Below, in pieces: positions 3,926 to 11,923 of a DNA stretch of 50,011 nt (position 1 is the first letter of the stretch; each line of letters opens with the position of its first letter). Position numbers and translations under genes: made by a program. The DNA is taken from assembly GCA_025362975.1 (NCBI GenBank), contig JANYES010000016.1, positions 1-50,011 of the forward strand, written 5' to 3'. The DNA is from Alphaproteobacteria bacterium (GTDB taxonomy: Bacteria; Pseudomonadota; Alphaproteobacteria; Rickettsiales; SXRF01). Under the pieces are notes generated by a model. It did not search any database. It had not been told where the DNA came from and saw only the letters and a program-made list of their open reading frames with translations.

Positions 3926-4384
3926 CTATTGCATCGCTTTGAACGTTTTGGGGTGTCCGAACAGCAGATGGTCGAGCGACCATTTATCGGCGCCGTGGGA
4001 GGCGATAACGGCGCAGATGACGGCCCAGAATGGCGCCAGCTCGTTGCTGTCGGTGTGGTAAATTACCCCCGACATGACGATCAAACCGAGCGCTCCAAAG
4101 CGTGCAAACAGGCCAAGTCCGAGCAGTGCGGACAATCCGACTTCGCCCATCATGCCCATCCATGCGGCGACTTTGACCGGCAGCAGCGGCACGTTATAAT
4201 CCTGAAACAGGAAGTACAGCGTGTCGGCTTTGCCTTCTAATATATAGTCGAGTTTAAGGTTGCCCGATTTCCAGAAATCATTGGCCACGAGCAGGCGCGC
4301 ACCCAGCAGGGCGAGGGGGAAAAGATGGCGGTCGGAGAGTTTTTTGAGTGGTTGCAGGCGCGCGGCGATGGCTGAAAAACACAT
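3926..4384 (-). CDS. DoxX family membrane protein
   Basis: This is a 152-residue integral membrane protein with about four hydrophobic helices. After a short cytoplasmic start comes LALLGARLLVANDFWKSG (from about residue 26), the DoxX-type first helix and following loop. It continues with a methionine/glycine-rich second helix (WMGMMGEVGLSALLGLG) and two further helices. DoxX proteins are small inner-membrane proteins variously linked to redox or thiol stress. No substrate can be assigned from this sequence. The gene stands alone, divergent from the HU-like gene across a 260-bp AT-rich spacer. It could also be described more loosely as a DoxX/SURF4-like protein. Confidence 0.72.
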   Translation of the reverse strand: MCFSAIAARLQPLKKLSDRHLFPLALLGARLLVANDFWKSGNLKLDYILEGKADTLYFLFQDYNVPLLPVKVAAWMGMMGEVGLSALLGLGLFARFGALGLIVMSGVIYHTDSNELAPFWAVICAVIASHGADKWSLDHLLFGHPKTFKAMQ

Positions 4385-6463: not shown

Positions 6464-7861
6464 ATGATTGAGCCGCAGGAAAGGACAGAAAAGCGTTCGT
6501 TCGATTTCACCGTCCGCGCCACCTGCATCGCCGCGCTGGCGCTGATAGCATGCGCGTTTAGATTGTTTTTTCCTTTTGAGCGCATGCTCAAATTCGTGCC
6601 GCAATGGCAGCGCCTTGCTTTCCTTCCCGTCTGGGCCAACTGGCTGATCGGCGCTCTCGCCGTGGGCGCACTGCTATGGCTGTTGATTCGCCCGCGTAAT
6701 CGCATCGCCGCGGCCGCGGTCTTTGCCATCGTAACGCTCATGGTGCTTCAGGACGTCGACCGTTTCTCTTCAGGCCTGTGGATGTATGGTTTCATCATGA
6801 TTGTCATCGTAGTGGGGCAGGGGGGAACGCAAAAAGGCATGCAGGCTGTGCGGCTGATGTTCGGCGGCGCGTTTATCTGGTCGGGCACCCATAAATGCAC
6901 GCCGATTTTCTACCGCGACGTGCTTCCCGTACTCATGCAGCCGTATCACAGTTTCACCGAGCCGACCGGCGTGCTGGACATCGTCTTCATGACGTTGATG
7001 TACAGCTTCGCGCCTTTACAGATTCTCATCGGCGGGCTGTTGTTCGTGCCGCGCGGGCGCAAGCTTGCCTGCCAGCTTTGCATTATTTCCATTGTGCAGC
7101 TCTTCTTCCTGTTCGGCCCCCTCCAGCGAGTCGATTACCTCGCCATGTGGCCGTGGTATATCTGGCTCTACGCCGTCACCTTGCGCCTCTTCGGCGAAGC
7201 CCAGACTAACCGCCGCTCACAATTCCTGCTCTATGATATGGAAGGCTTAAGCGTCGTGGCGTTTATCCTCTACATCATCGCCCCGCTTAACGCCTTCTTC
7301 GCGCCGTGGTACGCATTGCCGGGCTTCAAATACGCCTCCGGCGATCAGGCCTATGCCATACTGGCATTCCAAAGCGAAGAAAGCTTTACAGGCGTGCCCA
7401 ACGATGTGCTTCAAAAACTCGTGCCAAGAATCTACCCCTCCACCGTGCCGCAATGGGTGAAGGCCGAATTCTACAGCCCGCTCTACCCACGCCCCGATTT
7501 GCACTTGTCCTACCCCGACCCCGCCTGCCAGACCCCGCGCGACCCCAACCGCGTCACCCAGCGCATGTTTTACGTTTCTGCGTTCAGGCACAGCAACGAC
7601 AAGACCTGGCATTTTCTGCGCCTCAATGAACTCGCTGATAATGAATTTAATATGCCCCTCTTTCCGACCCGCTTTACCTACGCGGTGGCTTCGCTCGGCA
7701 TGTGCCGCTATCTTGACCACCCCGGCACGGCGCGGATGGATTATTACAGCGCCTCGCGCCTGATGCACCACATGCGCGCCGCAGATACCTATCCTCTGTG
7801 CCGTTGGAAGGGTCGCTCTGACCCGGTTAAAAAATGGCGCAGGATGATTCCGTATAAATAA
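6464..7861 (+). CDS. Polytopic membrane protein, HTTM/DoxX-like, with a long C-terminal domain
   Basis: The 465-residue product has about seven to eight hydrophobic helices between residues 18 and 280, then a soluble C-terminal region of about 185 residues rich in Pro, Tyr and Arg. The segment GGAFIWSGTHKCTPIFYRD (around 132-150) recalls the YFxSGxxK helix of HTTM (gamma-carboxylase-like) and DoxX membrane proteins, but the match is weak and I see no catalytic residues. It probably sits in the inner membrane with the C-terminal part on one face. It follows a secreted hydrolase by 7 bases and ends at a strong terminator. This may be a two-gene envelope operon at the edge of the exosortase cluster. 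Confidence 0.55.
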   Translation: MIEPQERTEKRSFDFTVRATCIAALALIACAFRLFFPFERMLKFVPQWQRLAFLPVWANWLIGALAVGALLWLLIRPRNRIAAAAVFAIVTLMVLQDVDRFSSGLWMYGFIMIVIVVGQGGTQKGMQAVRLMFGGAFIWSGTHKCTPIFYRDVLPVLMQPYHSFTEPTGVLDIVFMTLMYSFAPLQILIGGLLFVPRGRKLACQLCIISIVQLFFLFGPLQRVDYLAMWPWYIWLYAVTLRLFGEAQTNRRSQFLLYDMEGLSVVAFILYIIAPLNAFFAPWYALPGFKYASGDQAYAILAFQSEESFTGVPNDVLQKLVPRIYPSTVPQWVKAEFYSPLYPRPDLHLSYPDPACQTPRDPNRVTQRMFYVSAFRHSNDKTWHFLRLNELADNEFNMPLFPTRFTYAVASLGMCRYLDHPGTARMDYYSASRLMHHMRAADTYPLCRWKGRSDPVKKWRRMIPYK

Positions 7862-7893
7862 AAAAGCCGCCGGAATCAACCGGCGGCTTTTTT
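7859..7893. terminator. Bidirectional terminator between convergent genes
   Basis: A perfect 12-bp stem AAAAGCCGCCGG / CCGGCGGCTTTT with loop AATCAA carries A-rich and T-rich flanks. It separates the plus-strand membrane protein from the minus-strand VPEMP protein and can serve both. Confidence 0.88.
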
Positions 7894-7912: not shown

Positions 7913-8206
7913 TTACGCGTAGAGCGAAGCCTGGCAATTTTTGCGGATTGCGCGCAATGCCACAAACGTCATGACGATCAGCACCGGAACCATCATGAGC
8001 GGCATTTCAGGCACAGGATCGAGCTGGGTGACCGAATCGACTGTAATGGTCTCCGCATAAGCTTCCGTCATGAAGACATGATACAGGGCGCTGGTATCCG
8101 GCAGGTTAATACCCCCGGTCAGCACTACGCCGAGCGCATCGGTCAGCGCAAACAGCTTAAGGCCGCGAACTACGGATTTATTAAAAATTCTGCTGTCTGC
8201 TTTCAT
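7913..8206 (-). CDS. Small exported protein with PEP-CTERM-like (VPEMP) sorting tail; likely exosortase substrate
   Basis: The 97-residue product has a hydrophobic N-terminal segment (about 17-35). A possible signal-peptidase site TEAYA|ETIT lies after residue 51. Next come a short hydrophilic stretch, the motif VPEMP at 65-69, a hydrophobic helix (LMMVPVLIVMTFVAL, 70-84) and a basic end (RAIRKN, 85-90). Motif plus helix plus basic cluster is the tripartite layout of exosortase substrates such as PEP-CTERM proteins. The next gene on the same strand, 127 bp upstream (8334-9344), encodes an exosortase, which supports the pairing. The exported part would be only about 15-35 residues, unusually small. 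Substrate status is inferred from layout and neighbourhood, not proven. Confidence 0.6.
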   Translation of the reverse strand: MKADSRIFNKSVVRGLKLFALTDALGVVLTGGINLPDTSALYHVFMTEAYAETITVDSVTQLDPVPEMPLMMVPVLIVMTFVALRAIRKNCQASLYA

Positions 8207-8333
8207 AGGAAATCCCCATTATTAATTGCTACCTATCAATTCTATACTAAGCGACTGGCTTTATCAACCCTGTTTACACGCCGAAACACCGCTGTAAACC
8301 TTACAACAACATAATTTTTAACGATTTTTTAAT

Positions 8334-9344
8334 TTACTGCCGCACCGCGCGTGCCTTGGCGGCGGCACGGATGGCACGCTTGTAGACGATCATGGCGAAT
8401 ACCGTAAACGCAATGAAATAATATATCTGCCCCGCAAATGAGTGGAACATCTGCTTAGGCGCCCCGCGCCATTCCTGCATCGCTTCCGACGCGTCCGGCA
8501 TGGATGCGAAATAGGCGATGGTAAATAACGACGCGATACGCAGGCAATTCACGAGGAACATATAAAGGAAGCCCACAAGGTACATTTCGATCAGATGCAT
8601 GCGCCTGAAAATCGGCCAGTCGAACATCAAAATCGCCGATAGCAGGAACTGGAACATGAAAATCCCCTCAATACCGCTGCATGGGCGATACACCGCCAGC
8701 ATGTAATAGCGCGAAAACAGCCGCACATTCTCCCCGTCGCTGACATTCACCCCGATCTGAAACCCGATAGAATGCAGCATGCAATACACCACGAACGCCG
8801 TCGATTGGCACAGCCGCTCGAACAAGAACGTGTCGAACAGATTATACAGGCAACTCACGCACGACCCGAACGCCGCCACCGCCCCAAGCACCGGACTGGA
8901 ACGCACACGGTGGCAGAATGCCAAGAACGGCACCATGATAAACAGCCCCAAAACAATACTGGTAGCCAGAAAAATTGCCGCGATATCGTCGTGCTTCTTC
9001 GCGTTGATATTGAAGCCGATGATGAACAACACGAGGCTGGCGATCAACACGCCCAGCGAAAATCGCGTCTGTATTTTTTCCTGCCGGTTCAGCGCGCGAA
9101 TCAGCAACAGGAACGAAAACGGCAGCGTAAATAAATATGAAGCCGGAAAAATCATCACTGATTCGGTGATGGTGGTGTGGTCGGGAAACACCCAGCCGCG
9201 CTTGATCCACCCGTGGATATTGATGGCCAGCAGCCCCAGAAGGCTGAAGCCGCCAATCTTTAAATAATGCCCCAGATCGCTGGTAGCGAGTGTAGAAAAC
9301 AGGGTGCGGATTTTTTGTTCGTGGCTTTTCTTTGGGTCGGGCAT
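8334..9344 (-). CDS. Exosortase/archaeosortase family transpeptidase
   Basis: The multi-pass membrane protein (336 residues from the ATG at 9344) has the three catalytic signatures of exosortases. They are Cys222 in YRPCSGIEG, Arg269 in FLVNCLRIASL, and His301 in MFHSFAGQIYY, each in or beside a membrane helix. Exosortases cleave a C-terminal sorting tail and are thought to transfer the substrate to an envelope acceptor. The frame stays open to an upstream ATG at 9473, but that form would overlap the divergent glycosyltransferase gene. MPDPKKSHEQK leaves a 35-bp divergent spacer, so I prefer it. Neighbours are a VPEMP-tailed small protein and two glycosyltransferases, typical exosortase company. 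The subfamily is not identified. Confidence 0.85.
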   Translation of the reverse strand: MPDPKKSHEQKIRTLFSTLATSDLGHYLKIGGFSLLGLLAINIHGWIKRGWVFPDHTTITESVMIFPASYLFTLPFSFLLLIRALNRQEKIQTRFSLGVLIASLVLFIIGFNINAKKHDDIAAIFLATSIVLGLFIMVPFLAFCHRVRSSPVLGAVAAFGSCVSCLYNLFDTFLFERLCQSTAFVVYCMLHSIGFQIGVNVSDGENVRLFSRYYMLAVYRPCSGIEGIFMFQFLLSAILMFDWPIFRRMHLIEMYLVGFLYMFLVNCLRIASLFTIAYFASMPDASEAMQEWRGAPKQMFHSFAGQIYYFIAFTVFAMIVYKRAIRAAAKARAVRQ

Positions 9345-9379
9345 TGTCTTTAAGTGTCGAGATATGTTATCTGTAAAGT

Positions 9380-10951
9380 ATGACAGATTGGCTGCAAAAA
9401 GCAAAACTTCCGTTCGCCCGTATGCTTCGGGGCGGGTTGAAAAAAATACAACATTTGCCGCCCGGGCAGGCACTGCAGTTGGCCCTCATGGCCGCGCTCG
9501 CGCTGACGGCCTATTGGTATGCACGGTATTTCTCCGTCGTCATTTTCCGTTCCTACCCCTTTACCCACGACGAATACGTGAACAACTACCAGGCTCGCAT
9601 CTTCGCCGCCGGGCGTATGATGCTGCACATCAACGAGATGTTCGAGCCGATGATCGAAGTGTTCATGATTAGCTACAATGATTATATTTTTTCCAAATAT
9701 CCGCCGGGATTTTCCGCCATCCTTGCCATCGGCGCGCTGCTAGGCAAAGCCAACCTCGTCAACCCCTTCATCACCGCCGTATCGTCCTGCGTCATTTTCG
9801 TCTTGCTGCGGCGCATGTTTTCCGTGTTGGTCGCCGCCTGCACGGTCCTGCTGCTAGTCCTCAACTCCTATTTCCTTGGCTTTGGCGGCAGCTATTTCCC
9901 GCAACCGCTGACGCTGCTCATTGCCGCCTTCGTGTTTTATTTCTACCAACGCCACGAAGCCGACGGCCGTCGCCGCAATTTGTTCGCCGCCGCCTTCGTC
10001 ATCGGCCTGTGTTTTCTTGTCCGCCCGCTCGACGCGTTCTGCTTATTGCTCACCTTCTGCACCGCGCTGCTCTTCGAACCGGGCCGCACGCGCATACGCT
10101 GCATCACCGACATCGCCTGCTTCGGCACCGCCGGTTCATGCGGGTTGCTGGTGTTGATGCTCTACAATTACTGGCTGGTCGAGTGCTTCTGCGTCGCCGT
10201 GTACCCGATCTGGGATAGCGAGTTCAAAATCGTCGAGCCCACCGCCCTCAGCTGGCAGGAAAACCTGCTTCATGTCGCCATGCAATACGCCGATTCGCTA
10301 CTGCCGTATTTCCAGCTCAACCTGATCGAAAAATTCATTCCCATCATCGGCCCGATGTTCCTGTTCTTCGCGCTCGCCGGCGTGTTCGCCACTCCTAACA
10401 CCCTGTGCTGCGCCAGCGTGCTCTACATCATCGTGCAGGTATTATTCTACAACTTCCACCAGCAGGTCGGCGTATTCATCGCCAACGCCGGCTGGCCGCA
10501 ATACGGCACGCGATACTGGTATCCGCTTATCGTCCCGCTCTGCGTCCTCGCCGCCAACGGCTTGCGCTTCGCGCTGAAAAAGTTGCCGCTCTATGCTTTC
10601 GCCGCGCTCGTCGTCTTCACACTCACGCTGCAAATCACCCGCATCAACAGCGATGCCGCCGACTATAAGCAACGCTTTGACGACGTGCTGCGCATTAAAT
10701 ACGCCTTCGAGAAACGCTGCCCCGGCAAGGCTGTGGCCATTCTGTTCCCGCACGAATGGTACTTCTATTTAAACAAAAAAGAGTTCATCACGGTGGACGA
10801 TTTCAAGCGCAACATGTTCATGACCGGCCCGCTTTATTACGTGAACACCCTCAACGAAGCCATATGGTTCATTCAGCGCCGCCGCGATTACCATGTCTGC
10901 CAGTTCTTCCTCCACGAACACATCATGGACAACTGGCACAAGGAAAAATAA
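9380..10951 (+). CDS. GT-C-type membrane glycosyltransferase (GT39/ArnT-like)
   Basis: The 523-residue polytopic protein has roughly ten or more membrane helices. After the first helix, the periplasmic loop carries FTHDEYVNNYQ (Asp64-Glu65). This matches the conserved acidic pair of GT-C enzymes that use polyprenyl-phosphate sugars, such as PMT, ArnT and related proteins. A KYPPGFSA motif follows in the next loop, also typical. It would transfer a lipid-linked sugar to a protein or glycan on the periplasmic side. The donor could be made by the neighbouring GT2 enzyme. It is divergent from the exosortase across 35 bp. Its TAA directly abuts the TAA of the convergent GT2 gene with no base between. 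Acceptor unknown. Confidence 0.72.
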   Translation: MTDWLQKAKLPFARMLRGGLKKIQHLPPGQALQLALMAALALTAYWYARYFSVVIFRSYPFTHDEYVNNYQARIFAAGRMMLHINEMFEPMIEVFMISYNDYIFSKYPPGFSAILAIGALLGKANLVNPFITAVSSCVIFVLLRRMFSVLVAACTVLLLVLNSYFLGFGGSYFPQPLTLLIAAFVFYFYQRHEADGRRRNLFAAAFVIGLCFLVRPLDAFCLLLTFCTALLFEPGRTRIRCITDIACFGTAGSCGLLVLMLYNYWLVECFCVAVYPIWDSEFKIVEPTALSWQENLLHVAMQYADSLLPYFQLNLIEKFIPIIGPMFLFFALAGVFATPNTLCCASVLYIIVQVLFYNFHQQVGVFIANAGWPQYGTRYWYPLIVPLCVLAANGLRFALKKLPLYAFAALVVFTLTLQITRINSDAADYKQRFDDVLRIKYAFEKRCPGKAVAILFPHEWYFYLNKKEFITVDDFKRNMFMTGPLYYVNTLNEAIWFIQRRRDYHVCQFFLHEHIMDNWHKEK

Positions 10952-11923
10952 TTACTGTTCGGAAATATCCACCAGCCGGTAGCGAATGTCTTCCAGCAGC
11001 ATGCGGTTGACCTTTACGCTGTTGCAGATCAGCCCGGTTAAAAATGTCATCACCGCCGCCGATCCCAACACAATCGCCATCATCAGCGCCGGCATATACC
11101 CCACGCCTTGCCCCATCGCCATGTAGCGGATGTAACGCGACGCCATCGCTAAGCTCAGCACCATCAGCACCGCCGACACCGACGAAAAGAACACCAGCGG
11201 CCTGAACAGAATCAGCACATGGATAATCGTCTGCGCCGATTTCACAATATAATTTAAATTGCTGCGAATCAGCCGCGACGGCCGCAGCTCCTCGGGATTG
11301 ACTCGAATCGGCACGCAGGTCATCGGAATATTCTTATACCCGAGCTGAATAATCATTTCGATCGTATACGTGTATTTCGTCACGATATTAAGCCGCTTTG
11401 CCACGTCCCGGTGAATCGCGCGGAACCCCGACGGCACGTCCTCGATATTCGTTTTCGAAATAAACCGCACCACACGGCTGCCGAACCGCTGGAAGAATTT
11501 CTTCACCGTCGAGAAGCGTTGAATCTGCAAAATCGGCCGCGTGCCGATTACCACCATCGCGCTGTTATCCAGAATCGGCTGCACCAGTTTTTCGATATCG
11601 TCGGCGCAGTACTGGTTGTCCGCATCGGTATTGACAATCGTGTGTGCGCCCAGCTTCACCGATGCTTCCAGCCCGCTCATAAACGCGCTCGCCAGCCCTC
11701 TATTATACCCGTGGCGAACGATGTGATGCACGCCCAGCGCGCGCGCCACATCCACCGTCCGGTCCGTAGACCCGTCATCGATCACTAGAACTTCCACCGT
11801 ATCGTAACCCGCGACCGAAAGCGGCAGCGCCTTCAGCGTAACCGGCAGCGAGTCCTCCTCGTTGAAGCAAGGAATCTGTATAATTAACTTCCGCTTACGC
11901 GTATCGTCCGGTATCTCTGTCAT
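10952..11923 (-). CDS. GT2 family glycosyltransferase (polyprenyl-phosphate sugar synthase type)
   Basis: The 323-residue protein has an N-terminal GT-A domain. It starts LIIQIPCFNEEDSLP, then carries VLVIDDGSTD (46-54) and the metal/nucleotide-binding TDADNQY (99-105). Residues about 235-312 hold two membrane helices. This is the layout of DPM1/GtrB-like enzymes that load a sugar from a nucleotide donor onto polyprenyl phosphate at the cytoplasmic face. The product is the usual donor for GT-C enzymes, and one is encoded next to it on the other strand. The sugar identity cannot be read from sequence. The stop codon abuts that of the GT-C gene. Confidence 0.85.
   Translation of the reverse strand: MTEIPDDTRKRKLIIQIPCFNEEDSLPVTLKALPLSVAGYDTVEVLVIDDGSTDRTVDVARALGVHHIVRHGYNRGLASAFMSGLEASVKLGAHTIVNTDADNQYCADDIEKLVQPILDNSAMVVIGTRPILQIQRFSTVKKFFQRFGSRVVRFISKTNIEDVPSGFRAIHRDVAKRLNIVTKYTYTIEMIIQLGYKNIPMTCVPIRVNPEELRPSRLIRSNLNYIVKSAQTIIHVLILFRPLVFFSSVSAVLMVLSLAMASRYIRYMAMGQGVGYMPALMMAIVLGSAAVMTFLTGLICNSVKVNRMLLEDIRYRLVDISEQ

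Follow-up and report, generated by a model that had tools for sequence, protein, structure and literature searches.

Cysteine, arginine, and histidine are the signature residues of the exosortase/archaeosortase superfamily and the conserved residues of the classical EpsH exosortases. The known system closest to the one described here is XrtE/VPEID-CTERM. According to the excerpts available of PMC1569441 and PMC3237569, the classical PEP-CTERM/EpsH system is characterized by a Pro-Glu-Pro motif, often at least 20 substrates, and a location in exopolysaccharide loci. For the rhombosortase/GlyGly-CTERM system, the excerpt of PMC3237569 describes enzyme and target genes as usually adjacent where the genome has one target, and in Flavobacterium, XrtF is an exosortase with an adjacent partner gene and with targets that the excerpts of PMC10936215 and PMC12188702 give as unknown. 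In this study, we analyzed a stretch of 50,011 nucleotides (the window; contig JANYES010000016.1 of a bacterium of the alphaproteobacterial order Rickettsiales), which is contig C27 of genome G000, a genome rated 98.31% complete and 3.56% contaminated. An exosortase gene (8334-9344, minus strand) and a small gene (7913-8206, minus strand) are neighbors in this window, and an earlier reading of the letters alone (the sequence-only reading) had placed both correctly. We consider it quite probable that they constitute a dedicated exosortase pair in which the small neighbor encodes the substrate. The pairing itself and the unnamed subtype are well supported.

The exosortase and its small neighbor

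The features of the pair are the following.

8334..9344, minus strand: exosortase, 336 aa, unnamed subtype; TIGR04178 32.8 bits, cutoff 23
8679..8681, minus strand: codon of Cys222, the proposed nucleophile; read in the sequence, alignment column invariant
8538..8540, minus strand: codon of Arg269; alignment column invariant
8442..8444, minus strand: codon of His301; alignment column invariant
7913..8206, minus strand: candidate substrate gene, 97 aa; no Pfam, NCBIfam, or PHROGs match
8054..8206, minus strand: putative signal peptide, residues 1-51 with Ala-Tyr-Ala at the end; called by the A-x-A rule
8012..8053, minus strand: putative mature part preceding Pro-Glu, residues 52-65, 14 residues, given the predicted cleavage
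8000..8014, minus strand: VPEMP motif, residues 65-69; read in the sequence
7940..7999, minus strand: hydrophobic helix (70-84) and basic cluster RAIRK (85-89); read in the sequence

The longest frame of the exosortase opens with a GTG at 9473 and comprises 379 aa. The start is likely the ATG at 9344, which gives 336 aa and the numbering Cys222/Arg269/His301; read from this ATG, the three residues named in the sequence-only reading were confirmed, and they show no variation across the eight aligned homologues (8/8). All eight enzymes pass the superfamily model TIGR04178 (26.0 to 42.3 bits, cutoff 23), and none exceeds the cutoff of a named Xrt subfamily model in NCBIfam 20.0. The best subfamily score among them is 26.7 bits for archaeosortase C (cutoff 100), obtained by the enzyme of locus L005. 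A check of the window enzyme against the Xrt subfamily profiles, suggested by the earlier reading, left only TIGR04178 above cutoff, and the next model, XrtG, reached 13 of 102.75 bits. The tree unites the five alphaproteobacterial enzymes in a single group (97/96), and the 18 members of the window exosortase family split from XrtE and XrtD at 87/87; the branches are long, and the deep order is therefore uncertain. The window enzyme apparently represents an unnamed branch of a known superfamily that matches no curated subfamily model. Because the AlphaFold2 model has a mean pLDDT (predicted local distance difference test) of 67.7, with a better C-terminal core, and a Foldseek search against the PDB returned nothing at E 0.001, structure contributes little. 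A sequence search of solved structures gave no match, and viral contigs, phages, and plasmids gave no relatives at the limits used.

The small open reading frame (ORF) reads ...DPVPEMPLMMVPVLIVMTFVALRAIRKNCQASLYA. It had been described as a same-strand neighbor of 97 residues whose end combines VPEMP with a helix and a basic tail, and this description holds, with a gap of 127 bp between the two genes. Across the eight aligned tails, the Pro-Glu is invariant (8/8), and besides the initial Met nothing else is. The PEP-CTERM model TIGR02595 lists none of the eight small proteins at E values up to 10, and across the window's own genome it yields four weak rows, all under cutoff. The suggestion that VPEMP may mark a new subtype is supported: the tail lies outside the named models, and the enzyme passes the cutoff of no known subfamily. 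By the A-x-A rule, the predicted lengths before Pro-Glu are 14 residues in the window protein, 12 in L004, 3 in L005, and about 9 in L083, and longer mature parts are predicted for L002 (43 residues with 6 Cys) and L003 (40 with 4 Cys).

Relatives of the pair in two phyla

A search with the single protein matched 5 of 37 related genomes, G000 included, and a profile search matched 5 of the 174 genomes of the order. The intact homologues belong to G000 (two), G007, G012, and G022. At all five of them, including the second pair of G000, a small PE[M/L/I]-tailed gene is adjacent; adjacency of enzyme and target genes, one criterion for a single-target sorting system (PMC3237569), was therefore found at 5/5 loci in the order. 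The tails of the neighbors include CLPEMSD (L003), VVPELPV (L004), and GSPEIPD (L005). The second homologue of G000 (contig C20, L002) is 31% identical to the window exosortase and has its own upstream neighbor, a Cys-rich protein of 102 aa ending in TTPEMSD, a helix, and RRR. Because the small genes are co-directional or convergent and occur on either side of the enzyme, the pair is conserved but not as a fixed operon. The co-occurrence that the sequence-only reading had proposed to check is present, and neither a known subfamily with many substrates nor an unconserved small ORF was seen. Genome G002 has a degenerate homologue only, and the whole-genome tail search found no tail in it better than E 0.885. 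At the level of the class, the profile search at E 1e-8 matched 3 of 385 genomes, namely G000 and two genomes with XrtE.

The tail layout of the small protein is that of sorting signals, and outside the tail the members differ without constraint (4-8 Cys, or 3-14 residues), with Pro-Glu alone invariant besides the initial Met. This makes it unlikely that the small protein serves the exosortase as an accessory subunit, in the manner of the XrtF partner, rather than as a substrate, although the pairing at 5/5 alphaproteobacterial loci would suit a subunit, the mature part is nearly absent in some members (3 residues in L005), leaving little cargo, and deletion of the XrtF-adjacent partner gene gives the same colonization phenotype, as far as the excerpt of PMC10936215 reports.

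A scan of genome contigs with the window protein alone confirmed no locus. With the alignment profile, the scan gave a total of six loci: L016-L018, which had been encountered before, and L019-L021, which were new. The new ones extend the family to a second phylum, Bdellovibrionota, to which UBA2466 belongs. Directly downstream of each of the three lies a Cys-rich small gene ending VPELPSWFGPFF...(K/R). Of the 15 genomes in the class of G556, the genome of L020, 10 carry exosortase rows, 14 in all. An adjacent PE[L/I]P gene occurs in 7/14 rows (L077, L078, and L079, which are L019, L021, and L020, and further L080, L083, L085, and L089), and in one more the tailed gene is one gene away (L081, GAPELPEG, seen in L091). 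In two rows, L084 and L087, a Cys-rich domain, a helix, and a basic cluster lie within the same open frame as the enzyme. The Bdellovibrionota loci were read only after the PE[M/L/I] motif had been recognized. The enzyme and its motif seem to have drifted together (PEMP, PEMS, PELP, PEIP). In the two single-frame loci, both of genome G559 (L084 1450-2949 and L087 916-2439), the exosortase is followed by a further hydrophobic segment, a Pro-rich linker, the Cys-rich domain, and the basic tail; if real, these would be natural fusions of enzyme and substrate.

A pattern scan for short ORFs ending in PE[M/L/I], a helix, and basic residues covered 57 loci (352,544 bases, some overlapping), with cut-offs set after the tails had been seen. 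It returned 15 rows representing 14 genes, all of which (14/14) adjoin an exosortase gene, 12 of them of the window family and 2 XrtE, an association beyond chance. Across 31 loci, an earlier and looser P[E/D] scan had yielded 14 rows, of which 8 (7 genes) stand beside an exosortase and 6 are chance frames, and it failed to pick up the three tails of L019-L021. With leave-one-out profiles, each of the five tails ranks first among the non-training ORFs (3863 ORFs, 211 kb), at E values of 0.0031, 2.1e-6, 1.4e-9, 7.3e-4, and 1.5e-5, and the next ORF is at 0.035 or worse. The whole-genome tail searches find the adjacent genes, which are themselves profile members; beyond these, nothing better than E 0.246 was found in G000, G002, G007, G012, and G022, and nothing better than E 0.158 in G555-G557.

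Several observations weigh against a dedicated pair with a single substrate. The family is rare, with intact copies in 4 of the 174 genomes of the order, and the window protein has a weak signal peptide, with an Asp within the hydrophobic stretch. In the same ORF set, the five-tail profiles miss the Bdellovibrionota tails: L019 is at E 0.13 or worse or unlisted, and L020 and L021 are not among the matches listed. The eight-tail profile scores L083 at E 0.59 and L085 at E 2 and does not list L089, and the genome search of G555 missed the L089 tail, which is a real diverged tail of that genome. The enzyme of L089 is a 101-aa fragment at a contig end, and the fused tails of L084 and L087 read PQF, not PE. 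In two of the 14 rows, the only tailed gene is Cys-rich and lacks Pro-Glu; it is adjacent in L082 and lies about 2.5 kb away in L086 (visible in L093). Another two rows show no candidate: L088 has none within a contig of 9.4 kb, and L090 lies at a contig end. Because the tail profiles miss diverged tails, the absence of unlinked substrates is weakly supported. The earlier proposal of a one-substrate system therefore stands with respect to the conserved neighbor and is weakened with respect to the exclusion of other substrates; the genome-wide check that accompanied it yielded no further close tail, but with a search of low sensitivity.

Glycosyltransferases and gene order

Two glycosyltransferase (GT) genes lie next to the pair in the window. 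The GT-C gene (9380-10951, plus strand; PMT_2, 30.1 bits, cutoff 26.1) is divergent from the exosortase gene, with 35 bp separating the start codons, and the GT2 gene (10952-11923, minus strand; Glycos_transf_2, 89.5 bits) is convergent with GT-C. The exosortase and the small gene are the sole co-directional pair among the four genes. Because of these directions, the four genes are not one operon, and the GT genes share no transcript with the exosortase. The sequence-only reading had placed both enzymes directly beside the exosortase; both are present with domain matches, but they are not co-transcribed with it.

The same reading had also proposed a self-contained cluster: the GT2 would supply a lipid-linked sugar for transfer by the GT-C, and the exosortase would anchor a tiny exported peptide to the envelope. 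In the version weighed here, the peptide is joined to that glycan. Homologues of the two GT genes occur together on contig C68 of G001, a 79% complete genome with no exosortase match, and on contig C8 of G007, in which the exosortase lies on another contig, C1. The GT pair is not beside the other four alphaproteobacterial pairs, and G012 (87% complete) and G022 possess the exosortase with no GT match at the thresholds of E 1e-10 and 1e-40. These observations and the gene directions in the window make the proposed cluster quite improbable, and they outweigh the adjacency of the GT genes and the exosortase in the window, the different GT2 directly downstream of the pair in L020, ahead of a large protein that carries an NPCBM domain at its C-terminus, and the GT2 about 8 kb from the second pair of G000. 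The claim of a self-contained cluster did not survive, as the GT pair is not conserved with the exosortase. A glycan link of the exosortase pair is possible and is not a conserved one. The GT pair was rejected as part of the module, because it occurs without a nearby exosortase and is absent beside the other alphaproteobacterial pairs.

On the other side of the pair, one further feature lies between the candidate substrate gene and a convergent gene of 465 aa.

7860..7893, no strand: perfect inverted repeat whose 14-base arms contain runs of A and T; read in the sequence, unlisted by the terminator scan

This repeat is a probable bidirectional terminator. Promoter-like and terminator-like sites are no more frequent than in shuffles; one promoter-like site (8267-8239, minus strand) lies upstream of the small gene. 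The convergent gene (6464-7861, plus strand) encodes a membrane protein that matches MauE weakly (19.3 bits, cutoff 27). Farther away, 3926-4384 (minus strand) encodes a protein of the DoxX family (43.2 bits, cutoff 23.6). It also matches, below cutoff (36.7 of 80 bits), HvfX, a maturation protein of copper-binding ribosomally synthesized and post-translationally modified peptides.

Proposed mechanism and comparison with known systems

The signal peptide would export the small protein, and the C-terminal helix and basic tail would hold it in the inner membrane, with Pro-Glu-Met at the periplasmic face. Going by what is known of the family, the exosortase would cut at or near the motif via Cys222, aided by Arg269 and His301. 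An acceptor would then receive the new C-terminus; by analogy with archaeosortase A, the likeliest one is an envelope lipid amine, and a glycan or water are the alternatives. We infer the cleavage, the nature of the acceptor, and a mature product that may comprise no more than 14 residues. To our knowledge, neither the chemistry of exosortases nor the acceptor has so far been proven in bacteria. A lipid acceptor is our first guess because the substrates of archaeosortase A are lipid-anchored, with HvPssA and HvPssD contributing, according to the available excerpt of PMC7157517. We tentatively raise the less probable possibility that exosortase systems are reducible to making a very short peptide conjugate, as several members have a predicted 3-14 residues before Pro-Glu. 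Their product would then be a tag linked to a lipid or glycan, or a signal peptide that is released, and not a surface protein. If this were true, the enzyme would be freed from many substrates, so that enzyme and motif could drift together, up to the fusions of G559. One enzyme with one tiny substrate, a second pair in G000, and apparent fusions offer a clean system for studying the cut site, the acceptor, and the reading of the motif, and an unmodelled exosortase branch is added in two phyla.

A third, more distant exosortase of G000 (contig C21, L027) is XrtD (553.8 bits, cutoff 400), with an EpsI domain (133.2 bits, cutoff 42.8) and a neighboring PrsT-like tetratricopeptide repeat (TPR) protein (266.8 bits, under its cutoff of 312.2). 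GT2-like ORFs near this gene were called by reading ORFs, not by domain search. The VPLPA-CTERM model gives 11 rows in G000, 2 of them above cutoff. Eight loci (L060-L064, L066, L068, and L070) were re-read, omitting L065, L067, and L069; all eight end in [VI]P[LV]PAS and a helix, and they are spread over four contigs. The two new-type pairs therefore coexist with a several-substrate system of a different motif. G000 also harbors a degenerate exosortase homologue in which all three catalytic residues are replaced (L026 9608-10846, contig C15), as does G002 (L028 9280-10503, contig C17). In these two genomes of the genus, it is flanked by an RNase E/G gene and an Amidase_3 gene, then a class A penicillin-binding protein, and it is perhaps a conserved pseudoenzyme.

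In the literature searched, we found no paper using PEM-, PELP-, or PEMP-CTERM and no paper mentioning both "exosortase" and "Bdellovibrio"; the term "dedicated exosortase" was found only for a multi-substrate system. XrtE/VPEID-CTERM (TIGR04162/TIGR04161; L029, L030) resembles the window pair in that one exosortase accompanies an adjacent small exported VPE[I]-tailed protein. XrtE proteins with adjacent VPEID-CTERM genes are also the only class-level profile matches outside G000 at E 1e-8, and both points would favor the window pair being a divergent XrtE system. However, TIGR04162 is unmatched by 8/8 enzymes and TIGR04161 by 8/8 tails, whereas two XrtE controls matched both models. No CAAX-protease model matches the window family, and XrtE groups with XrtD in the tree, not with that family (87/87, long branches meeting). 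A divergent XrtE system is thus highly improbable, and XrtE membership of the pair was rejected, as neither enzymes nor tails match the models. XrtE differs from the window exosortase in its fusion to a CAAX-type protease and in its motif, VPEID, and the models of the two do not cross-match.

XrtD/VPLPA-CTERM (TIGR04152/TIGR03370) shares with the window pair the superfamily signature, the tail layout, and the genome, but it has scattered substrates, a VPLPAS motif, an EpsI domain, and a PrsT-like TPR neighbor. The classical PEP-CTERM/EpsH system has a PEP motif and often many substrates, in contrast to the PEMP-type tail and neighboring candidate substrate of the window pair. Rhombosortase/GlyGly-CTERM is alike in its adjacent dedicated pairs, but its enzyme is an unrelated rhomboid protease and its motif is another one. 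XrtF is alike in its adjacent partner gene and differs in that its targets are unknown. The window pair is a new subtype of dedicated exosortase pair, itself a known type of system (the excerpt of PMC3237569, and XrtE here). Because dedicated pairs are already known, the novelty is confined to the new subtype.
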